From positions 1 through 64,000 of IMG/VR virus record IMGVR_UViG_3300023313_000003: a DNA stretch of 64,000 nt. One strand, written 5' to 3'. Position numbers and translations under genes: made by a program. Source of the DNA: a virus. The notes beneath the pieces are model-generated. The model searched no databases. It was given only the letters and a program-made list of their open reading frames with translations, and was not told the origin of the DNA. This document shows, one piece after another, positions 7,839 through 59,746 of the stretch (position 1 is its first letter; each line of letters starts with the position of its first letter).

Positions 7839-8723
7839 CTAAAATGGTATATCATCAGTTGAAAAGTTACCGAAACTTCCTTCATTAGCTACTGTTTGAG
7901 TCGCTTGATTTAATTCTGGTTGAACTGTAGCTTGTTGTTGCGTAGCTTGTGGCTGTTGTTGCGTAGCTTGATATAAAGGTTCACTTGGAGCTGTCGTATC
8001 ATTCTGTGGTGCTGGCTTTGCGTTATACTCTTTTGGTGCTGGAGCAGAAGGAGCAGATTTCTTAGATGAAGGAATATATCCTAATCTTAATATATTATTT
8101 AATTCTGCCTCTGACTTCATTGTATGAACATTATCTAAATCATGAAGCTCAGGTACATCAATTTTTCTAATGTCATGCGCTCCATCCAATACTTCAAAAG
8201 CATAATTAGTCTGTGCCTTTTGACCTGTTCTATTGCAATAAATTTTATAATTTCTATTAGGGTCTGTTACATTAGTGTTTTTTTGTTTCCACCAGAATCC
8301 TATCTTTTGCATTAAAGCTTCATGCGCTCTATAAGAAAGAGACATTGTTTTGTGCTGACCTTCTTCAGTAAGAAGTTGCCAAATATAAGTAGCTCTTGCT
8401 CCAATTTTACTCGCTTCTTCTTTCTTTTCATTCCCTTCTTTAAGTTTACCTTGTGCTAAAAGATTTTCACCTTCAATCATCATCTCAGAATGTTTCTTAC
8501 ATATTGGACAAATCTCTTCTGATCCTGCTTTCTTACTAGCTAAACATCTAATTGGTATCATGTTATTATTTTCATTAGAAAAACCCCAATGCAGTCTAAT
8601 AAAAGCATAAAGCTTATTAGGTGCAAAAGGTGGCAAGATTCTAAACTTATGCTCACCATTTTTTAACTTGTAGTTTTCTACTTTTTTAAAACTTCCAAAC
8701 ATTTCATCATTTAATCCGTACAT
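7839..8723 (-). CDS. gp32-like single-stranded DNA binding protein with SSB-type C-terminal tip
   Basis: The N-terminal two thirds resemble phage gp32-type ssDNA-binding proteins: a FRILPP strand, a conserved His/Trp pair (LHWGF), and a Cys cluster (PIRCLAS, then CPIC) likely to bind zinc. Residues after about 215 form a Pro/Gln/Ala-rich flexible linker that ends NFSTDDIPF. The last five residues equal the tip of bacterial SSB (DDDIPF), the docking peptide for host replication and repair proteins; T4 gp32 has a different acidic tail. AAAGGAG precedes the ATG. The protein should coat ssDNA for the polymerase, primase and recombinase encoded around it. Confidence 0.8.
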   Translation of the reverse strand: MYGLNDEMFGSFKKVENYKLKNGEHKFRILPPFAPNKLYAFIRLHWGFSNENNNMIPIRCLASKKAGSEEICPICKKHSEMMIEGENLLAQGKLKEGNEKKEEASKIGARATYIWQLLTEEGQHKTMSLSYRAHEALMQKIGFWWKQKNTNVTDPNRNYKIYCNRTGQKAQTNYAFEVLDGAHDIRKIDVPELHDLDNVHTMKSEAELNNILRLGYIPSSKKSAPSAPAPKEYNAKPAPQNDTTAPSEPLYQATQQQPQATQQQATVQPELNQATQTVANEGSFGNFSTDDIPF

Positions 8724-33546: not shown

Positions 33547-34356
33547 TTAGAATACTTCATCAAACTTAAAAGGCATCGTCATATATCTATTAACAGTATA
33601 AGATTCAGCAGGAATAGTAGACATTTGCCCCCACCCTGTAAAAAGCTCAGGGTCATCTCTATCTACAATTGTTAAAAATGGAACGCTAATACCCACATAG
33701 TCGAATAAACTTCTTAAATTAACAAAATTTGTATTGTTTCCGATTTTAGTATCAAGTTTTGCAAACTTAACACTTAAAGTTCTAGCTTTAACTCTCTGAT
33801 TTGATTGTCTAAAGAAGCCTTCTGTACTTATAACTTCAGCATAATCTTTAGTTGCAATAGAAATTGAGTCTGTAATATCTTCATTATTACTCATAGTAGT
33901 TGCTCTCCCTCCTACTATTCTACCAATCTCAATAAATCCACAAGGATTAGTTGGATCGAGTATTCTAACTCTATAATACTCAAATTGATCTCCTAATTCT
34001 GAAAGCCACACCATATTTTCTCTCATATAAGGGATAGTAACTGTAACTGGAGGTGCAAGCCAATTATCTGAAATATTAGCTTGGAGTTGAACTACAACAT
34101 CTGGAGTAAAATTATGCCCAATGATAGCAAAAGTGTCGATATTTGACACTTTCTCAGCCTTTATCACTATTTCTTGCCAGTTTAAAACATCTGTACTTCT
34201 CCATCTATGCCTACTTGATTCAGTATTTAAGTTTAATTTATCAAAATCACCAGACGCTTGAGAAGTTACTGACAAAATATTTTGGCCTGGATTATAAATA
34301 TCTCTGTTCCCAAAATCAAATCTATGTAAAAAGCTTATTCCTGTTCCTGAACTCAT
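33547..34356 (-). CDS. Distal tail-type structural protein, 269 aa
   Basis: Beta-rich protein with a likely discoidin/galactose-binding-like N-terminal part (RWRSTDVLNWQEIVI, NIDTFAIIGHNF, FEYYRVRILDP). It begins in an ATGA overlap with the tape measure stop. In siphophages the gene directly after the tape measure is normally the distal tail protein (Dit), and the size fits. The sequence does not show a clear Dit signature, so this is positional inference. Confidence 0.55.
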   Translation of the reverse strand: MSSGTGISFLHRFDFGNRDIYNPGQNILSVTSQASGDFDKLNLNTESSRHRWRSTDVLNWQEIVIKAEKVSNIDTFAIIGHNFTPDVVVQLQANISDNWLAPPVTVTIPYMRENMVWLSELGDQFEYYRVRILDPTNPCGFIEIGRIVGGRATTMSNNEDITDSISIATKDYAEVISTEGFFRQSNQRVKARTLSVKFAKLDTKIGNNTNFVNLRSLFDYVGISVPFLTIVDRDDPELFTGWGQMSTIPAESYTVNRYMTMPFKFDEVF

Positions 34357-37300
34357 GATGCAATAACTCCTTTATCACTTATAATTGGTTCTCCACGTTC
34401 TGAAGCTTCTCTTATTCCTTCAATTACAGCTTGCTTAATTCCTTCAATATTTGAATCCCGATCAGCATTAATAGTAAAATTATAAGTATTTCCACCAGAA
34501 CCTTCTTTTCTGTCCTTAAGATAACCTGTCAAATCCTTATTCGCTTCTGGCTGAAGAACCCTTTCTCCACCTTTTAGCAAGAAAGATTTGTCACTCATAG
34601 ATTGAGGGATTGAGTCCATACCACCATGAGCTTGACCTCCACCGAATTTTTGAGCTTTAATCTGTGCAACATTAGCAATACCAGCAGCAACAGTTACACC
34701 AGCAAGTAAAGGCCCAAGAAGAGGCCCTGCTCCAACTGGAGGTGGAGCTAAAGCTGCTGTCGCTCCAGCAAAAGTATTCATTATACTAGAAGTAATGGCC
34801 GCGGCTTTACCTACCTCGAACATATCTTTGTCTTTACTTCCTCTTAATTTGGAAGTCATGTCTAAGATCTTACCTGTATTCTTATATTCGCTAGTTTGTT
34901 GAACTGCCATTATAGCACCAAGAGCTTGACCATTTTTAATTTGACTCGCTCTCATTCTCGCTCTAAATTGTTCAGCTCTATTCCCTGCATCTTGAGCAAT
35001 CTTAGCTTTATCTTGGTAAAATCTAAGTTCAATCTCTTTTAACTTGTTCTTATGTTGGATTTCTCTTTGCTCTCTCGCTAATCTGAATTGATCTTCAGTT
35101 ATTACCTTGTTCTCTTGTTCAAATTGAAGCCTTTCTAATTCTAACTGATGTTGCTCTTCTTGTTTTGCCATTTGAGCAGCGAGTCCATCATCAGTTAATC
35201 CTAATAATTCAGCTCTTTGAGTTTGAAGTTCCAACTCTTTCATTGTTTTTTCTTGAATAGCTGCTAATTTTGTATCATGCATTTTTTTCTGCATTTCAAT
35301 TTCAGCATTAGCTCTTGCTTGTCTTCTAGTTGAGAGTTCTAACTCTAATTGATCTGAAATTTCATTAAAAGATTTTTGCATTTCTATCTCAGAAATTTTT
35401 CCTTGCATTTTTAATGCTTTAATCTTATTCATTCTAATTTCAGTATTAATAATTTCAGCTTGGTCTTCAGCTCCAGCACCAGCAGAAGTTCCACCAAGCA
35501 ATCCTGCTTTAATATTAGCAAGTGCAGCTTGTTTTTGTTGTTCTGAAGATATAGAAAGAGCCATCTTTGCTTGAAGGTTTTGTTCAAACATTTGAAGTTC
35601 TGTTTCATTAGCAGCAAGAAGAGCTGACTCATTATTTGAAAGACCATACTTAGCCTCAAGCTTTCTTTTAGTAATAAGTTCTTGAGTTAATAACTCAATT
35701 TTCATATCTTTTATATTTACTGCCTGATCTCGCTTCATTTGAGCGATTTCCATTTCTGTAGTAAAAACTTTTGACATTTCTTGATCAAGACCTATTTGAA
35801 CTTGAGCTATCTGAGAATTTCTAGTTTCTTGCTGTATTTTTATTTTATTAGCTTCTAGTGCTTCCATGGCAGCGAGTATTTTTTCACTATTTTTGTCAAC
35901 AGCACCCCAATCTGAACCACTTTTAATTAATGCTTGATTTAATTCTTGTCCTTTTGTTATTATTTTTTGAAGTTGTGCTGAAAACTTAGCTGAATCTGCC
36001 TTAATTTTTTGTAGATTTAAAGATGGAGTCAAATCTGAAACAAACTCAAAAGCAGCTTCTCCTTCTTTAACTATTTTGTTGAAAGAAGAGGATAATTTTT
36101 CTAAATTTTGTTTTAAATTTTTTACTGAATGACCAACTTTATCAGAAGCCCCTGCTGTGGATATAAAACCATTAACAACATCACCAGCGACTTCTCCAGA
36201 TAAAGTTCCCATTGTTTCTGATAATTGCATTATAGAAGAAGTTAATCCTTGCATTTTTTTATCAGACATTGCTAAAGAACTAAGTCCAAGATAATTAAAA
36301 ATCTGAGATAAACCCCCAACTGCCAAAGTTAATGTCATTATTCCATTAACTAATGCTAATATCCCTACTGCAACTACTTTTATTGCAGTTCCTAACATTC
36401 CACTTAATATCTCTGCAAGAGAAGTTGAAGATTTATTAGCTTTCTCTGCTGAATCTGCAACAGAGGCAAAAGCTTTAGATAGAGTATCAACAACTTTAGA
36501 AAATATCTTAAATCTTTCTTCAAGCATTGTTACTGCTTTATATAAGGCCGCGGCAATAGCTATAATTATTGTAATTTTAATCAATAATACTTTATTAGCA
36601 ACAACCCATTTCCAAGTCGCAATTGTGGCTGCTTTTATAGAGGAAATTAACGATACAGCGATACTTCTAGCTGTTAATTTACTTGCTGCTTCCATTCCTA
36701 ATATACTTTTAATAGCACCAGCTACTTTTACTTTAAGAACACTAAGTCCTGTTCCTGCGACTTCCTTTAAAGATCCAAATTTCCCTGCAACTCCAGTTAC
36801 ACCCATAGCCATTTCAGATAAACTTTTATTAATAAAAGGTAACTGAGAAGAAAATACTTTCATTCCAGCAGAAGAAGCTAACCCTGCGTTTAAAGCACCC
36901 AAACTTGAGGTAACTAATCCTATCAATAATGAGTTTTGAAGAAGAACCCCTCCAACTTGCATTAATCTCCCCGATAAAGCTTGGATAAAACCAATAGCAG
37001 GAAGAATTGGTTTAACTAAATTAGTAAATCCTGATGTTAATTTTGCTAACCCCATGACTACTTGACCATTTATAATTTGACCGCCTTTACCTAATTCTTG
37101 CATTAATTCTTTTGTTGCATTTTTTTGAAGTTTTAATGCTTTTGAATAAGTGTCAGCATTACTTGAAGCAAACCCAGCGGCTAATCCTGCTTGCTCCATT
37201 AAAACATTGTATCTTGCTTGCCCTTTTTCTACATCTCCAAGTTTATTAAAATTATCTTTTAACTCTTGATTAAGATTTGATTGTTTTATAGCAGTTGAAT

Positions 37301-39203
37301 TTAAGTGTAGTCCATAAACGGCTAATCCTGAGCTATTTCCATTAACAGCATTTATTAATGCTGTTAGAGTATTTATAGCTGGCTTATGCGCTCTCTCAGA
37401 TAAATCAATAGATCTACTTATAAGCGTTTCCATTTCTTTTTGGTTCAATCCAAAAGCATGAGTCGCACCAACTGTCTCTGCAACTAATTTCCTAAGAGAA
37501 GCTGTTGTTTGCCCTGTTGATGAATTGGTCTTTTTAATAAATCCATTCCAAGTTTCTGTTGCTTTGGAGGCCTCTTCTGCTGAATGAGAATACCCTCTTA
37601 ATGTTTGAAGAAAGGCAAAGGTAGATTGCTCTGCTTTGGCAAAATATTCTATTTGTTTAGTAGAGGCTTTAGTAAAAGAATTACCCATTTTAGTAATGAA
37701 ACCACCTAATGCAACAGCAGCTTGCTGAACTATATAAGCAAACCCACCAAATGCAGCTCCTAAAGCTATAAGAGTAACCCCTGTAAGTCTCTTCATTAAG
37801 GTGTCAGCTTGCAATAGAGAGTACCCCATTATACCAAAAGCAGAACCAACAGCTCCAGCTCTAGCAACAGTTCCTAAGAGTCCTTTATGAAAAAATTCAG
37901 TGTGCTTACCTATTGTTAGCATTGTTTTACCAAAATTTAGTCCAACAGATCCAGCTTGTGCTGTTGATTTTGCAAATCTTACTAAAGAAGATCCTGAACT
38001 TACTATGATTTTACCAAATGATTTAACTCCTAATGATAAATTTTTAAATCCACTTTTAGATAATAATTTTATATTTGTTAATGTTGACTGAGATGACTTT
38101 GATATAATTTTAAATGCATTAGCCATCTTAGAACCTAAAGCTTTAGATAAAAGAATAACTTGTTTTTTAGTTTGAGAAACTTTTAATTTGAATAAATTTA
38201 ATTTAGAAGTTTTCATAGCTCCAACACTATCCCCAGCACTGTTAAAAGCTTTCTCCATACTTTTTGCATTATCAATTATTGCATTAGAAACTTTTAAACT
38301 AGCATTGGTCGCAGTTTCAGTAAAATTTGATAAGGTGTGATAGGTAGTCATAAGAGAAGACTGAAGTATAGTTAAACTAGTATGAACTCCTTTAAGTCCT
38401 CCTGCTGCTAATTGTAACATTGCCTTATTTAGCTTTAAGGCCACTGTATCAAAAACAGTTACTACTGCTTTATTAAGTCCTCCAAAATCACCTGACATTT
38501 TTAGAATACTAGGTGATACACTAGAAGACATGGCTTTAATCGTTTGAGTTGTCGATTGTATTCCTGCTTTTAATGTAGTTAACCCTTTCTTAGATATATT
38601 TTTAAACCCTTCTTTAACTTCAGATAACTTTAAATTACTCATTGAAGTTTTTAATGTTCTAAAAGATTGACTTATTTTATTACTAGCAGGGCCAAAGGCA
38701 GCCATATTTGAAACAAGCTCATCAGCACGAAAACTAACTTTAAGCATATATTCTTCAAGGGATATAAGACCTAATTTAATAGGCACAAATGTCTGCTTTA
38801 TAACCGCTAGTCCAATAAAAGCACCACCAACGGCTAAGGTGGTATCTGCGATTCTTTGCAGTCCATTGGAGATTGAAGAAAAGGCTGAAGGATCATTCAG
38901 CATATCTAATGTCGTCACTAATTGTTCATTTTGATCTTTTAATGCTTCAGTTAAACTATTAGTTTTCTCCATATCTTTGCTAAGAACTTTTAAAGTTTTC
39001 GCTTTAGCTCTCATAGATAGATTTGAGGAAAGTATGCTTTTGACTAAGTATTCCTGACTGACAGTATTTTCTTGAGCTGATTGATTCGCAGTTTGAAGTG
39101 ACTTGGTATACTCTGAATTAATTATCTTTGCAGCCCTTCTAATAATTGGGGATAAATTATCAACTGCTGTTAAATTTACTTTTAAGTTTTTTTCTATTGC
39201 CAT
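34353..39203 (-). CDS. Tail tape measure protein
   Basis: 1616 aa, mostly helical. It has several hydrophobic segments (for example about residues 450-510 and 880-1010) and long Gln/Glu/Lys coiled-coil stretches between about 1130 and 1490. The C-terminus has the ending typical of tape measures: GGGQAHGGMDSIPQSM, SFLLKGGERVLQPEANK. It sets tail length and is expelled on infection. At the usual ~1.5 angstrom per residue it predicts a tail of roughly 240 nm. It lies directly downstream of the two tail assembly chaperone frames, the conserved order in siphophages. Confidence 0.9.
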   Translation of the reverse strand: MAIEKNLKVNLTAVDNLSPIIRRAAKIINSEYTKSLQTANQSAQENTVSQEYLVKSILSSNLSMRAKAKTLKVLSKDMEKTNSLTEALKDQNEQLVTTLDMLNDPSAFSSISNGLQRIADTTLAVGGAFIGLAVIKQTFVPIKLGLISLEEYMLKVSFRADELVSNMAAFGPASNKISQSFRTLKTSMSNLKLSEVKEGFKNISKKGLTTLKAGIQSTTQTIKAMSSSVSPSILKMSGDFGGLNKAVVTVFDTVALKLNKAMLQLAAGGLKGVHTSLTILQSSLMTTYHTLSNFTETATNASLKVSNAIIDNAKSMEKAFNSAGDSVGAMKTSKLNLFKLKVSQTKKQVILLSKALGSKMANAFKIISKSSQSTLTNIKLLSKSGFKNLSLGVKSFGKIIVSSGSSLVRFAKSTAQAGSVGLNFGKTMLTIGKHTEFFHKGLLGTVARAGAVGSAFGIMGYSLLQADTLMKRLTGVTLIALGAAFGGFAYIVQQAAVALGGFITKMGNSFTKASTKQIEYFAKAEQSTFAFLQTLRGYSHSAEEASKATETWNGFIKKTNSSTGQTTASLRKLVAETVGATHAFGLNQKEMETLISRSIDLSERAHKPAINTLTALINAVNGNSSGLAVYGLHLNSTAIKQSNLNQELKDNFNKLGDVEKGQARYNVLMEQAGLAAGFASSNADTYSKALKLQKNATKELMQELGKGGQIINGQVVMGLAKLTSGFTNLVKPILPAIGFIQALSGRLMQVGGVLLQNSLLIGLVTSSLGALNAGLASSAGMKVFSSQLPFINKSLSEMAMGVTGVAGKFGSLKEVAGTGLSVLKVKVAGAIKSILGMEAASKLTARSIAVSLISSIKAATIATWKWVVANKVLLIKITIIIAIAAALYKAVTMLEERFKIFSKVVDTLSKAFASVADSAEKANKSSTSLAEILSGMLGTAIKVVAVGILALVNGIMTLTLAVGGLSQIFNYLGLSSLAMSDKKMQGLTSSIMQLSETMGTLSGEVAGDVVNGFISTAGASDKVGHSVKNLKQNLEKLSSSFNKIVKEGEAAFEFVSDLTPSLNLQKIKADSAKFSAQLQKIITKGQELNQALIKSGSDWGAVDKNSEKILAAMEALEANKIKIQQETRNSQIAQVQIGLDQEMSKVFTTEMEIAQMKRDQAVNIKDMKIELLTQELITKRKLEAKYGLSNNESALLAANETELQMFEQNLQAKMALSISSEQQKQAALANIKAGLLGGTSAGAGAEDQAEIINTEIRMNKIKALKMQGKISEIEMQKSFNEISDQLELELSTRRQARANAEIEMQKKMHDTKLAAIQEKTMKELELQTQRAELLGLTDDGLAAQMAKQEEQHQLELERLQFEQENKVITEDQFRLAREQREIQHKNKLKEIELRFYQDKAKIAQDAGNRAEQFRARMRASQIKNGQALGAIMAVQQTSEYKNTGKILDMTSKLRGSKDKDMFEVGKAAAITSSIMNTFAGATAALAPPPVGAGPLLGPLLAGVTVAAGIANVAQIKAQKFGGGQAHGGMDSIPQSMSDKSFLLKGGERVLQPEANKDLTGYLKDRKEGSGGNTYNFTINADRDSNIEGIKQAVIEGIREASERGEPIISDKGVIAS

Positions 39204-39212
39204 ACATTACTC

Positions 39213-39575
39213 TTAACTTTTGCTATTTGTTTTAGATTCTTTCATTTGTTTTTTATGTTCTCGCTCTCTATACACGTTAACAATACTATCTAAAAAATTA
39301 AAAAGTTCTACGCAATATGATGTTTGGTCATTCATGCTACCTCCATGAGGCCACACTCTATTTTCCTTACAATCAAAATATAATGAAACAATAAATTCTT
39401 CACTATAAGAATTAAAAGCTAAAGATCTAGGACATTCTCTATAAATCGTACCATTAACATCAATTAATGATTTTTTCTTATATATACCTCCGCAATTACG
39501 CAGAGATTGAAGTCCTTTGTCACAATTAGAACAATTAAAAGCCTTAGACTTATTATAGTCTAAGGCTAAGTCCAT
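39213..39575 (-). CDS. Tail assembly chaperone C-terminal frame (gpT-like)
   Basis: 120-codon frame between the G-like gene and the tape measure, the position of lambda T. It is in the -1 frame relative to the G-like gene. Slippage at AAAAAAG (39590-39596) would extend the first 144 G residues with AFRVI and then this frame, giving a protein of about 269 aa. It also has its own ATG in a UAAUG overlap, so separate translation is possible. It contains clustered Cys (CSNC, later NCGG, ECP, DC) that may bind zinc, and a charged C-terminus. In lambda the G-T fusion recruits tube subunits to the tape measure. Confidence 0.7.
   Translation of the reverse strand: MDLALDYNKSKAFNCSNCDKGLQSLRNCGGIYKKKSLIDVNGTIYRECPRSLAFNSYSEEFIVSLYFDCKENRVWPHGGSMNDQTSYCVELFNFLDSIVNVYREREHKKQMKESKTNSKS
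39540..39567. other. Perfect 11-bp hairpin downstream of slippery site
   Basis: Stem AGCCTTAGACT/AGTCTAAGGCT with a 6-nt loop, inside the start of the gpT-like frame. It begins 22 nt after the slippery heptamer on the mRNA. That is further than the 5-9 nt usual for frameshift stimulators, so its role in frameshifting is uncertain; a perfect 11-bp stem in coding sequence is still unusual. Confidence 0.6.
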
Positions 39576-40021
39576 TATGACTCTAAAAGCTTTTTTTCAT
39601 CATCACCAATCGCAGTTCTTAGCATTATAAAACCACCGATTTCTTGAATGATTGAAAAAGGAAACAAATCAATATCACACTTTTCAATTTTCCCTTCTTC
39701 TTGGTAAGAAGAGCAACCATGTTTAAAATATTTAACAAGCATTTCTGTTTGTTTTAATTGTTTAATTGTTGGTTTTCCTTCTTTATCTGAAGGATCAGGC
39801 ATTTCAACTTGAAAATGGTCTTCTTGGATAGTAGCTTGAGCTGAAGTATTCACATTTTTAATTAAAAAATAAGTTGGAAAGATTCCTTCTTTAAATTTAA
39901 GATAATCAACATTATATGTTTTTTCATACTTATCCATGTCACTTTTTTCTTTGTCTATTGCTCCATCTTGAGTTGAAACAATTTTTCTTACTTTTTTTGG
40001 GTCGATTTTTTCAATGGCCAC
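39575..40021 (-). CDS. Tail assembly chaperone (gpG-like)
   Basis: 148-aa acidic protein immediately before the frameshift site, two frames upstream of the tape measure, and downstream of the tail tube gene: the conserved place of lambda G. No strong sequence motif is visible, which is normal for this fast-evolving family. It has its own promoter-like element (40079-40089) and a terminator just upstream, so expression is separated from that of the abundant tube protein. It is expected to coat the tape measure before tube polymerisation. Confidence 0.7.
   Translation of the reverse strand: MAIEKIDPKKVRKIVSTQDGAIDKEKSDMDKYEKTYNVDYLKFKEGIFPTYFLIKNVNTSAQATIQEDHFQVEMPDPSDKEGKPTIKQLKQTEMLVKYFKHGCSSYQEEGKIEKCDIDLFPFSIIQEIGGFIMLRTAIGDDEKKLLES
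39590..39596 (-). promoter_or_regulatory. Candidate -1 ribosomal frameshift site A AAA AAG
   Basis: On the mRNA the G-like gene reads GAA AAA AAG CTT TTA GAG TCA TAA. The in-frame heptamer A AAA AAG is the strong slippery sequence of E. coli dnaX. A -1 shift here continues as GCT TTT AGA GTC ATA and enters the downstream frame without a stop. The site is five codons before the zero-frame stop, as in many tail assembly chaperone pairs. Confidence 0.7.
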
Positions 40022-40138: not shown

Positions 40139-40163
40139 TCCTTGGGAGATTAAGCATGACCAA

Positions 40164-41735
40164 TTACTTAATCGTTAACGTCATTTCATCATCTAAACTA
40201 TCAGTTGAAGTAGCTAGGCCGACTCCTTCAAGTGACAATGTAACATAACCATCAGCAGGGTTTTCAATAGGTGGTATGCTAAATTCTACTTTTGGCAATC
40301 TAAACTCAAAAGTTCTACCAGCAGAAGAACTAAAACTTGGAGCAGGAATATCATTAGGTTCTAATGTTATTGTAATATCTTCTGCAACAAATTTCTTATT
40401 TCTCATATAAAATGAGAAGTTATCTTTATTTAAAAGAACATCTAATTTGCAAGTAACTGAACGTCTTTTGTCAGGAATATATCCACAAATTTTGTTAGTT
40501 CCATAAAGAAAGTCTTTTTTAGTATAGTTATTAGCCAAAGCAATTTCAGCACTAATTAATTCACACTCTCCAATGTTAAATCCAGCAACAGTAAAAGTTC
40601 CTTTAAGTCCTAAAAGCGCACTTTCTGATGTTATTGGAGCATAAACTTCAGGAGCATGCCCCATTAAGTAAGAACCAACACTTGAAGCAGCCAAAGCAGC
40701 TCCACCAAGAGTAACTATATCTTCATTAACACCTTCATACACAGCAGAAATAGATCTAGCTGCTTCTATAATAGTGTTGCCATCAATATCAATAATATCA
40801 ACTAAAGAATTAACTTCGTATCGATTACCTTCTTTAAGGCCTAATTTTATATCGTTAGTTCCAAGACCACCTACTAAGAAAGAAGGGTTAGCCATTAAAA
40901 GTTGAGTATTTGCTCCAACACCTGAAACTGTAGCAGTAGCTATTGCAGTAAAAGCAGCAGATCCAGCTAATGCAGCTTGAATTTGAGTTGCACTTGAAAC
41001 TCCAGAATCCATTGAAACTTCAACATTATTACCTACAACAGTAACAACTTCTGCTCCAGCAACTCCACCAGTTACATATTTAACATTAATTAAATTTCCA
41101 TTTATTCCAGAACCAATTAAAGCATCAAAAGTAATATCTTGCTCTACAAGAGCAGCAAGTTGTTCAACACCAGTAATTGCTTGAGAAAGATTTCCTTCAC
41201 CAGCTACTAAAGAATCTTGAGCAAAACCATCTGCTTTAAATGTTGCCTTACCATCGCCAGGCAAAGAAAAAGTTACTGTATCGATAACACAACCAGTAGT
41301 TAATCTTGCATAGTGAGTTGCTTCTTCTATAATTCTAAAAGAATTAGAATTTAATCGTGAAAGAACATATTTAATCTCAGCAGGATTAGTTACATCAAAG
41401 TCTCCAAAAGCTGACACTAAGAAAGCATGAACTGGAGGTAATGTAGGATTTCCTAAACTATCAGGAGTGCCAGGTACAATATATGATTCAAAAGAAAATT
41501 CAACATTAATTTTACCACTTAATCTAGTAACTAAAGATCGTCCAGAACGTGCGCCTGAATCTTCTCTAGGAATATCAAATTTAATATCAGCAGCGATATG
41601 TTCAATAGCTCCTGAAGATTGTGGAATTAATCCACCTGTAGCTGTATCTCCATATCCACCTGTTTCTTGATCGATCCATATCTTCTGATCGACTCCTAAA
41701 ACTTCGTATGATCTTGATTTTAAGTCTCTACTCAT
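40164..41735 (-). CDS. Major tail tube protein with inserted module
   Basis: 523 aa. It sits between the connector genes and the chaperones, followed by a terminator, as expected for an abundant tube subunit. The N-terminal 190 residues and the C-terminal 200 (including NKDNFSFYMRNKKFVAEDITITLE and the ending VTLSLEGVGLATS) are consistent with a tube beta-sandwich. Residues about 198-290 are a module (NLINVKYVTGG, VVTVVGNNVEV, SGVSSATQIQ) also found in two other tail proteins. It is longer than typical tube proteins because of this insert. AGAGAGGAAA lies before the ATG. Confidence 0.75.
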   Translation of the reverse strand: MSRDLKSRSYEVLGVDQKIWIDQETGGYGDTATGGLIPQSSGAIEHIAADIKFDIPREDSGARSGRSLVTRLSGKINVEFSFESYIVPGTPDSLGNPTLPPVHAFLVSAFGDFDVTNPAEIKYVLSRLNSNSFRIIEEATHYARLTTGCVIDTVTFSLPGDGKATFKADGFAQDSLVAGEGNLSQAITGVEQLAALVEQDITFDALIGSGINGNLINVKYVTGGVAGAEVVTVVGNNVEVSMDSGVSSATQIQAALAGSAAFTAIATATVSGVGANTQLLMANPSFLVGGLGTNDIKLGLKEGNRYEVNSLVDIIDIDGNTIIEAARSISAVYEGVNEDIVTLGGAALAASSVGSYLMGHAPEVYAPITSESALLGLKGTFTVAGFNIGECELISAEIALANNYTKKDFLYGTNKICGYIPDKRRSVTCKLDVLLNKDNFSFYMRNKKFVAEDITITLEPNDIPAPSFSSSAGRTFEFRLPKVEFSIPPIENPADGYVTLSLEGVGLATSTDSLDDEMTLTIK

Positions 41736-59417: not shown

Positions 59418-59746
59418 TAAATACCCCCTATGTTTATAAAGTCGTATACTCTTTGTGTAGCATGGCAATTTTTTAATAATGACAATTCAACACTATTAAA
59501 AGGATTATGATATTCATTATTTAATTCTAGTAAATCTAATAATTGACAACTTGAAGAAAAAAGTAATTGTTCTTTGTGGCTTAAGCCTCTTTTAATATTA
59601 AAGTATTCTGTTTCGTCATCATCTTCAAAATGAATAGTAAGATCATCAAATAATTTATTAACTACTATTAACCTTTCGATAATATCTTCACTTAATACAC
59701 TTATTAAATTGTTTAATTGTTTTTGTTCTAATTTTAATTTATACAT
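59417..59746 (-). CDS. Hypothetical 109-aa protein, tandem paralogue B
   Basis: Start at ATG 59746, 8 nt after AAAGG; a GTG three codons earlier is less likely. Same layout as paralogue A (beta strand, helix with LSED or LSES, acid-rich loop DDDETE, NPF/NPY motif near the end). It is followed by A with a UAAUG overlap. Confidence 0.55.
   Translation of the reverse strand: MYKLKLEQKQLNNLISVLSEDIIERLIVVNKLFDDLTIHFEDDDETEYFNIKRGLSHKEQLLFSSSCQLLDLLELNNEYHNPFNSVELSLLKNCHATQRVYDFINIGGI

Follow-up and report, generated by a model that had tools for sequence, protein, structure and literature searches.

The two short open reading frames between the major tail protein and tape measure genes of this virus very probably belong to a single locus for a tail assembly chaperone of the lambda G/GT type, which would be made in a short form and as a −1 fusion. 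The locus lies in the window, a stretch of 64,000 nucleotides (positions 1 to 64,000 of the virus record IMGVR_UViG_3300023313_000003, which comprises 79,485 bases). Ribosomal frameshifting by −1 is by far the best account of the locus, because a tandem slip site is conserved in the right phase and because the second part cannot be reached otherwise in two relatives. A conserved hairpin, located 20–22 nt downstream from the slip site, most likely modulates the frameshift step, either by raising slippage or by preventing separate starts on the second frame.

Organization of the Locus

The genes considered here lie on the minus strand, in the 5′ to 3′ order tail tube, G, T and tape measure. The major tail (tube) protein (40164–41735, 523 residues) matches the Pfam family Phage_tube_2 (29.7 bits for a cut-off of 27), and the tape measure protein (34353–39203, 1616 residues) matches the PHROG tape measure families (best E-value 5e-21). 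The G-like gene (39575–40021), which starts with GTG, encodes 148 residues corresponding to the putative N-terminal part of the chaperone. The next frame, hereafter the T frame, extends from an ATG over 39213–39575 (120 residues). When entered by a −1 shift, the T-like part covers 39213–39590 (125 residues) and carries four invariant cysteines, in the pattern C-x2-C…C…C-P. The window thus displays the arrangement that characterizes the lambda G/GT type, in which two frames are flanked by the major tail protein and tape measure genes. In loci of this type, the short and long products are made at a set ratio, with neither one present in virions; the partner of G is the tape measure protein, and that of T is the tube protein.

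Neither the G nor the T part matches the Pfam or PHROG tail-chaperone families. The AlphaFold models of the two parts are poor (mean pLDDT 59 and 58), and a fold search of the PDB with the low-pLDDT G model gave no match at E ≤ 0.001. When solved structures were searched with a profile of T, the matches were weak and of the zinc type, the best one (E-value 0.001) being a C2H2-type protein; these matches were not used as evidence. The C-x2-C, C and C-P cysteines are invariant across seven aligned T parts, including that of Agrobacterium phage JP1, and the same four-cysteine pattern is visible in the T translations of Rhizobium and Rhodobacter phages. Judging from the sequence, these cysteines may bind metal.

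Two further features were observed around the tube gene. Alignment with its counterparts in two related contigs (L009 and L010) reveals about 100 extra residues in the middle of the 523-residue tube protein, which suggests an inserted domain. Between the tube and chaperone genes, at 40143–40110 (minus strand), lies a terminator-like stem of 14 pairs followed by a T-run, which could leave the chaperone and tape measure genes less transcribed than the tube gene. Rfam and tRNA searches of the window gave no matches.

The Slip Site and Its Background

The 0 frame of the G-like gene ends with GAT GAT GAA AAA AAG CTT TTA GAG TCA TAA. The heptamer A AAA AAG (39590–39596, minus strand) is in the correct phase for tandem −1 slippage and is followed by four sense codons, then by TAA. 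A preliminary description of this DNA had reported such an in-frame heptamer shortly before the stop of the G-like gene, and its AAG is indeed the fifth codon before the stop (39596–39590). The −1 frame had also been said to lead into the next frame directly before the tape measure gene, which the coordinates and the −1 translation bear out: this frame is closed just upstream of the heptamer (TGA TGA TGA), is open from the heptamer through the end of the next reading frame, and reads KKAFRVIMDL across the joint.

The heptamer alone is weak evidence, because in-frame A AAA AA[AGC] is common in this AT-rich genome, with 36 occurrences among the 20,069 codons of 68 mechanically called genes. Of the minus-strand −1 junctions, 20 have an open overlap, and just 2 of these contain any in-frame X XXY YYZ, namely the chaperone junction and another one at 59474. 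The latter is an in-frame A AAA AAT (59468–59474, minus strand) within the overlap of the reading frames 59755–59417 and 59468–59055, a −1 junction that bears no sign of function. The 0-frame stop and the T-frame ATG overlap by one base within TAATG (39573–39577, minus strand). The preliminary description had warned that overlaps of this kind occur at about ten other junctions, which is roughly right: a 1-nt stop/start overlap is found at 8 of the 20 minus-strand −1 junctions, the chaperone junction included.

Conservation in Close Relatives

Five related viral contigs (L006, L007, L008, L009 and L010) were obtained from a search with the tail tube protein. Searches of the viral contigs with both short chaperone proteins detected no relatives, nor did searches with the tape measure protein and with the product of the gene at 33547–34356; one portal relative (L003) was found, on a contig that ends before the chaperone locus. 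Alignment-based scans with the fusion and tube proteins retrieved the same five viral contigs only, with no matches in the genome contigs. The identity between the window and these relatives is 39–49% for the fusion protein and 41–51% for the G-like gene.

All five relatives have both frames immediately upstream of the tape measure gene. Each also keeps an in-frame A AAA AA- heptamer, ending with AAG in L006, AAC in L008, and AAA in L007, L009 and L010, at most four codons before the stop in each case. From the heptamer to the CxxC motif, the −1 translations of the six phages align without a gap. The stop-start arrangement is not conserved. In L008, as in the window, the stop and the T-frame ATG overlap (TCATGATGG). 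The overlap is absent in L006, where the T-frame ATG lies 5 bases after the stop, and in L007, L009 and L010, where the stop comes 0–1 codons after the heptamer and the ATG 14–17 bases past the stop. The stop-start arrangement has thus moved whereas the heptamer has stayed. Loss of the heptamer with both frames kept had been named beforehand as the result that would speak against frameshifting; the five relatives point the other way and support the lambda G/GT-type reading. The earlier caution was that the heptamer and its position, not the overlap, carry the weight; that overlap is absent in four of the five relatives. It is conservation, rather than the heptamer itself, that raises the site above chance.

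Distant Named Phages

The T part matches a protein of Agrobacterium phage JP1, encoded directly before its tape measure gene, with E-values of 0.03 for the window and 1e-3 for L009. JP1 T in turn matches an annotated tail assembly chaperone of Rhodobacter phage RcTiptonus (E-value 3e-9) and also leads to Rhizobium phages. The homology of T to annotated tail assembly chaperones is reached only through this chain from L009 to JP1 to RcTiptonus, and the direct link between the window and JP1 is weak (E-value 0.03). Searches of the named phages with G of L009 and T of L008 gave no matches. The only match of G among the named phages (H1, E-value 0.5, annotated ribonucleotide reductase) neighbors a tail spike gene and does not precede a tape measure gene; it was discarded as due to chance.

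Homologues of T stand before the tape measure gene in RcTiptonus, RcZahn, L338C, I4 and JP1; in TM16, the tape measure gene lies beyond the stretch that was fetched. The tail assembly chaperones of RcKickapoo, RcMenchie and RcDurkin are known from search matches only. In seven of the eight distant loci, the overlap contains exactly one in-frame X XXY YYZ, and the −1 frame runs on uninterrupted into the homologous part: A AAA AAC in JP1, RcZahn and TM16, A AAA AAG in RcTiptonus, and G GGA AAC in L338C, P11VFA and I4. The eighth locus, that of Rhodococcus phage ReqiDocB7, has no in-frame X XXY YYZ and is annotated as a joined frameshift protein preceding the tape measure. In RcZahn, gene 27 contains the in-frame heptamer A AAA AAC (L025, 2456–2462) four codons before its stop, with the shifted frame open into gene 28 and a stem at 21 nt. 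The heptamer of RcTiptonus is more distant from the stop (27 codons).

After the heptamer, the first ATG, GTG or TTG of the T frame is codon 54 in JP1 and codon 61 in RcTiptonus, that is inside the domain and downstream of CxxC. The absence of any earlier start implies that the cysteine motif of these two phages is reachable by frameshifting only. The annotated T genes of JP1 (L004, 6124), L338C (L011, 3085) and RcTiptonus (L024, 2675) begin at starts that fall within the conserved domain; very likely, the true reading of each is a −1 fusion with the upstream gene.

Initiation Signals Around the Junction

The T-frame ATG of the window is poorly placed for independent initiation. For the first ATG of this frame, the preceding Shine–Dalgarno (SD) energy is −2.4 in the window, −1.8 in L006, −0.5 in L007, −3.8 in L008, −0.7 in L009 and −1.4 in L010, compared with a median of −6.1 over 31 window genes (the T frame included). 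Some amount of free T might nevertheless be made from the ATG of the window. Before the heptamer, the SD-like element GGTGAT (39602–39607, minus strand) is a possible 5′ stimulator, and AGGAG occurs at about the same place in L006 and L008. Among coding windows matched for frame, 7, 7 and 2.3% have energies as favorable as those of the window, L006 and L008, respectively. The same energy scan found no such element before the heptamer in L007, L009 and L010, which makes it a clade-specific stimulator at most.

The Downstream Hairpin

A hairpin of 11 perfect pairs with a 6-nt loop (39540–39567, minus strand) starts 22 nt after the heptamer, just as first described. Its significance was assessed with a codon-preserving null, in which the protein sequence is fixed, the codons are redrawn from the tape measure gene and the local energy is compared. 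The local energy was matched in 1 of 2000 redrawn sequences for the window, in 4 of 2000 for L009, and in 0 of 2000 for each of L007, L008 and L010. The hairpin thus exceeds this null in the window and in four of the five close relatives. No significant hairpin was detected in the corresponding region of L006, around heptamer +22 (208/2000), and the local energy in JP1 is likewise unexceptional (298/2000). In the position-scan version of the null, the counts were 0, 3, 0, 1 and 0 of 400 for the window, L007, L008, L009 and L010, then 261/400 for L006, 21/400 for JP1, 25/400 for L338C, 14/400 for I4, 5/400 for RcZahn and 9/400 for TM16, the codon counts of the latter coming from 40 codons only. 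RcTiptonus, where the region is dual-coding, was kept outside the codon-preserving null.

In the alignment of the six sequences, 6 of the 11 pairs have changed on both sides, a level reached by 2 of 500 shuffles. The covariation score of the hairpin, 0.321, is reached by 1 of 500 shuffles. Sliding the structure by +1 lowers this score only slightly, to 0.285, because, in our reading, L008 pairs in a register shifted by one, several of its pairs being accordingly scored as broken in the covariation count. The number of further pair types in the hairpin shows no excess over the shuffles (396/500).

Within 60 nt of the heptamer, the strongest perfect stem starts at 20–22 nt in 9 of 12 loci. The exceptions are I4 (L012), where this stem is second to a slightly stronger one at 56 nt, TM16 (L026), where it is equal first with a stem at 3 nt, and RcTiptonus, whose best stem is at 6 nt. 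The count excludes L027, whose junction is that of L011, and L013, which lacks a canonical heptamer, and was made without RcKickapoo, RcMenchie, RcDurkin and RHph_Y1_11. In the downstream coding segments of 11 of the 12 loci (none for TM16), the strongest stem falls at 20–22 nt in 3–6% of cases. Of the four lineages outside the group of six to which the window belongs, three agree (JP1, L338C/I4 and RcZahn/TM16; not RcTiptonus); at about 5% each, a hand calculation puts the chance of this at about 5 in 10,000, a figure that serves only as a guide since the bin was chosen post hoc.

Other foldings were noted in the same region. A possible outer helix, proposed by folding, that would enclose the hairpin, pairing 39581–39570 with 39532–39519 (whole element 39519–39581, minus strand), would reduce the spacer to 8 nt. 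When synonymous codons were shuffled with the hairpin fixed, the observed energy was reached 593 times in 1500 for the window, 226 times in 1500 for L008 and just 11 times in 1500 for L006, the one phage of the three that stands out in this conditional null. Short spacer stems can be drawn in the window (GAGTC/GACTT) and in L008 (GGGTC/GACCT). L006, the sole close relative devoid of the 22-nt hairpin, has a 15-bp hairpin, close to perfect, some 98 nt downstream of the heptamer (about 8250–8305). L338C (L011) and I4 (L012) have a second stem of 9 bp (TGCACCCTY/GAGGGTGCA) 56 nt after the heptamer, adjoining the CxxC codons.

Comparison with Known Frameshift Systems

The locus shares with lambda G/GT, and with its counterparts in N15, HK022 and TP901-1, the two frames between the major tail protein and tape measure genes, a slip heptamer in the first frame and −1 entry into the second. 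The heptamer differs, being G GGA AAG in lambda, TP901-1 and HK022, GGAAAAG in N15 and A AAA AAG in the window. The T part of the window carries a four-cysteine motif. The roles of the lambda short and long products, as well as tail chaperone frameshifting as a known kind, are covered in PMC5009743; the prediction tool paper PMC10885494 likewise treats such frameshifting as known, and rates of 6–7% measured in two other tail chaperone genes are given in PMC3711429. The chaperones of the Rhodobacter, Rhizobium and Agrobacterium phages are closer, with a homologous C-x2-C…C…C-P T part, an in-frame heptamer and the same place before the tape measure gene. L338C and I4 differ from the window by their G GGA AAC heptamer, and RcTiptonus by the distances of its heptamer to the stop and to the stem.

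Stems were also compared with those of five control phages with a settled heptamer site: lambda, N15, P2, TP901-1 and HK022. The strongest stem starts at 20–22 nt in none of the five (0/5), the second best stem of lambda being at 21. D29, Bxb1 and Mu, with no canonical heptamer in the overlap, were dropped as controls; A118, where the −1 frame ends at once, and HK97, whose site is unsettled, were left out as well.

The dnaX gene of Escherichia coli has the same A AAA AAG, an upstream SD-like element (of which the window and L006, and L008 with AAC, have a possible counterpart) and a downstream stem-loop. The spacer is different, since the stem of the window starts 22 nt after the heptamer, not within 5–9 nt. 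According to PMC5009743, usual spacers between heptamer and stem are 5–9 nt long, and spacers of 11–15 nt also occur, tied to trans-acting factors in the characterized cases. The 22 nt of the window lie beyond both classes.

Proposed Mechanism and Alternative Explanations

The anatomy and conservation described above were computed, and the occurrence of slippage and the roles of the products are what we infer from them. Most ribosomes would read the 0 frame and stop at TAA, yielding the short form. A minority would slip back by one base, with two tRNA-Lys on the AAA AAG of A AAA AAG, and continue through the second frame to make a fusion of about 269 residues ending with the four-cysteine domain. 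If the products act as they do in lambda, coating of the tape measure protein would fall to the short form, and the long form, made in small amounts, would bring in the tail tube subunits.

If the two frames were instead separate genes, T would be translated by coupled re-initiation at TAATG and the heptamer would be a chance A-run. The frequency of such heptamers in the genome, the eight one-base overlaps and the presence of an ATG in the T frame of the window are all compatible with this. It is nevertheless very unlikely, given that the overlap is absent in L006, L007, L009 and L010 while the heptamer is kept, that JP1 and RcTiptonus have a heptamer and no nearby T start, that the SD before the T-frame ATG is weak in 6/6 phages, and that the codons between heptamer and ATG show protein homology in the −1 frame. 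A change of frame by transcriptional slippage on the A-run is given even slightly less credit. L007, L009 and L010 do contain nine consecutive A, and a run of nine is long enough for polymerase slippage to be suspected. However, the run is only A7 in the window and A6 in L008 and JP1, the G GGA AAC of the Rhizobium phages L338C and I4 contains no run, and the hairpin is downstream, not upstream, of the A-run; what all these sites share is a tandem X XXY YYZ in the correct phase. Ribosomal slippage accordingly remains the preferred reading of the frame change.

The role of the hairpin is less firmly assigned. It might raise slippage through a folded spacer, the outer helix or a bound protein, a role that fits the constant distance between heptamer and hairpin. 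It might instead keep ribosomes off the T-frame ATG, the second part being then made only as a fusion. Such a start block is a real if tentative possibility: an ATG lies just before or inside the hairpin in the window, L006, L007, L008, L009, L010, L025 and L026, and this role fits JP1 and RcTiptonus, neither of which has such a start, the former with only a weak hairpin and the latter with a displaced stem. Against it, the distance from ATG to hairpin varies, whereas that from heptamer to hairpin stays at 20–22 nt. A role independent of frameshifting, as an intrinsic terminator or attenuator ahead of the tape measure gene, is clearly less probable. A simple scan does class the hairpin of the window among terminator-like elements, with 5 T or more in the 8 bases past the stem, but these bases encode Phe-Asn/Asp-Cys, and the position of the hairpin relative to the heptamer is nearly fixed across phages of very different base composition. 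Several relatives (L008, L011, L012, L025 and L026) moreover have no T-run after the stem, which makes this role unlikely.

As a modulator of the frameshift step, the hairpin might, in the four-cysteine family, be a conserved element placed beyond the mRNA entry channel and acting other than by direct mechanical resistance. This more specific proposal is held with considerable doubt. The means could be a bound protein, the suppression of independent T starts, or a compact fold with the spacer; a bound protein might be the four-cysteine T part itself, with feedback on the G:GT ratio.

Significance

The frameshift itself is of an already known kind, and the long-spacer hairpin is the less ordinary part. 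In the literature covered by our search, in part and with most subscription papers outside its scope, no description of a hairpin at 20–22 nt was found for phage tail genes. PMC8601537 states that RcZahn shows no clear frameshift sequence, a published statement on which the A AAA AAC of this phage bears. For annotation, a rule follows for the four-cysteine family: the second frame should be joined to the first, and not called as a separate or truncated gene. The frameshift extends the textbook case to a group of phages that have no close named relatives. Should the hairpin prove to tune the ratio of G to GT, it would represent a stimulator, or else a guard of the start site, of a type outside the usual spacer rules.
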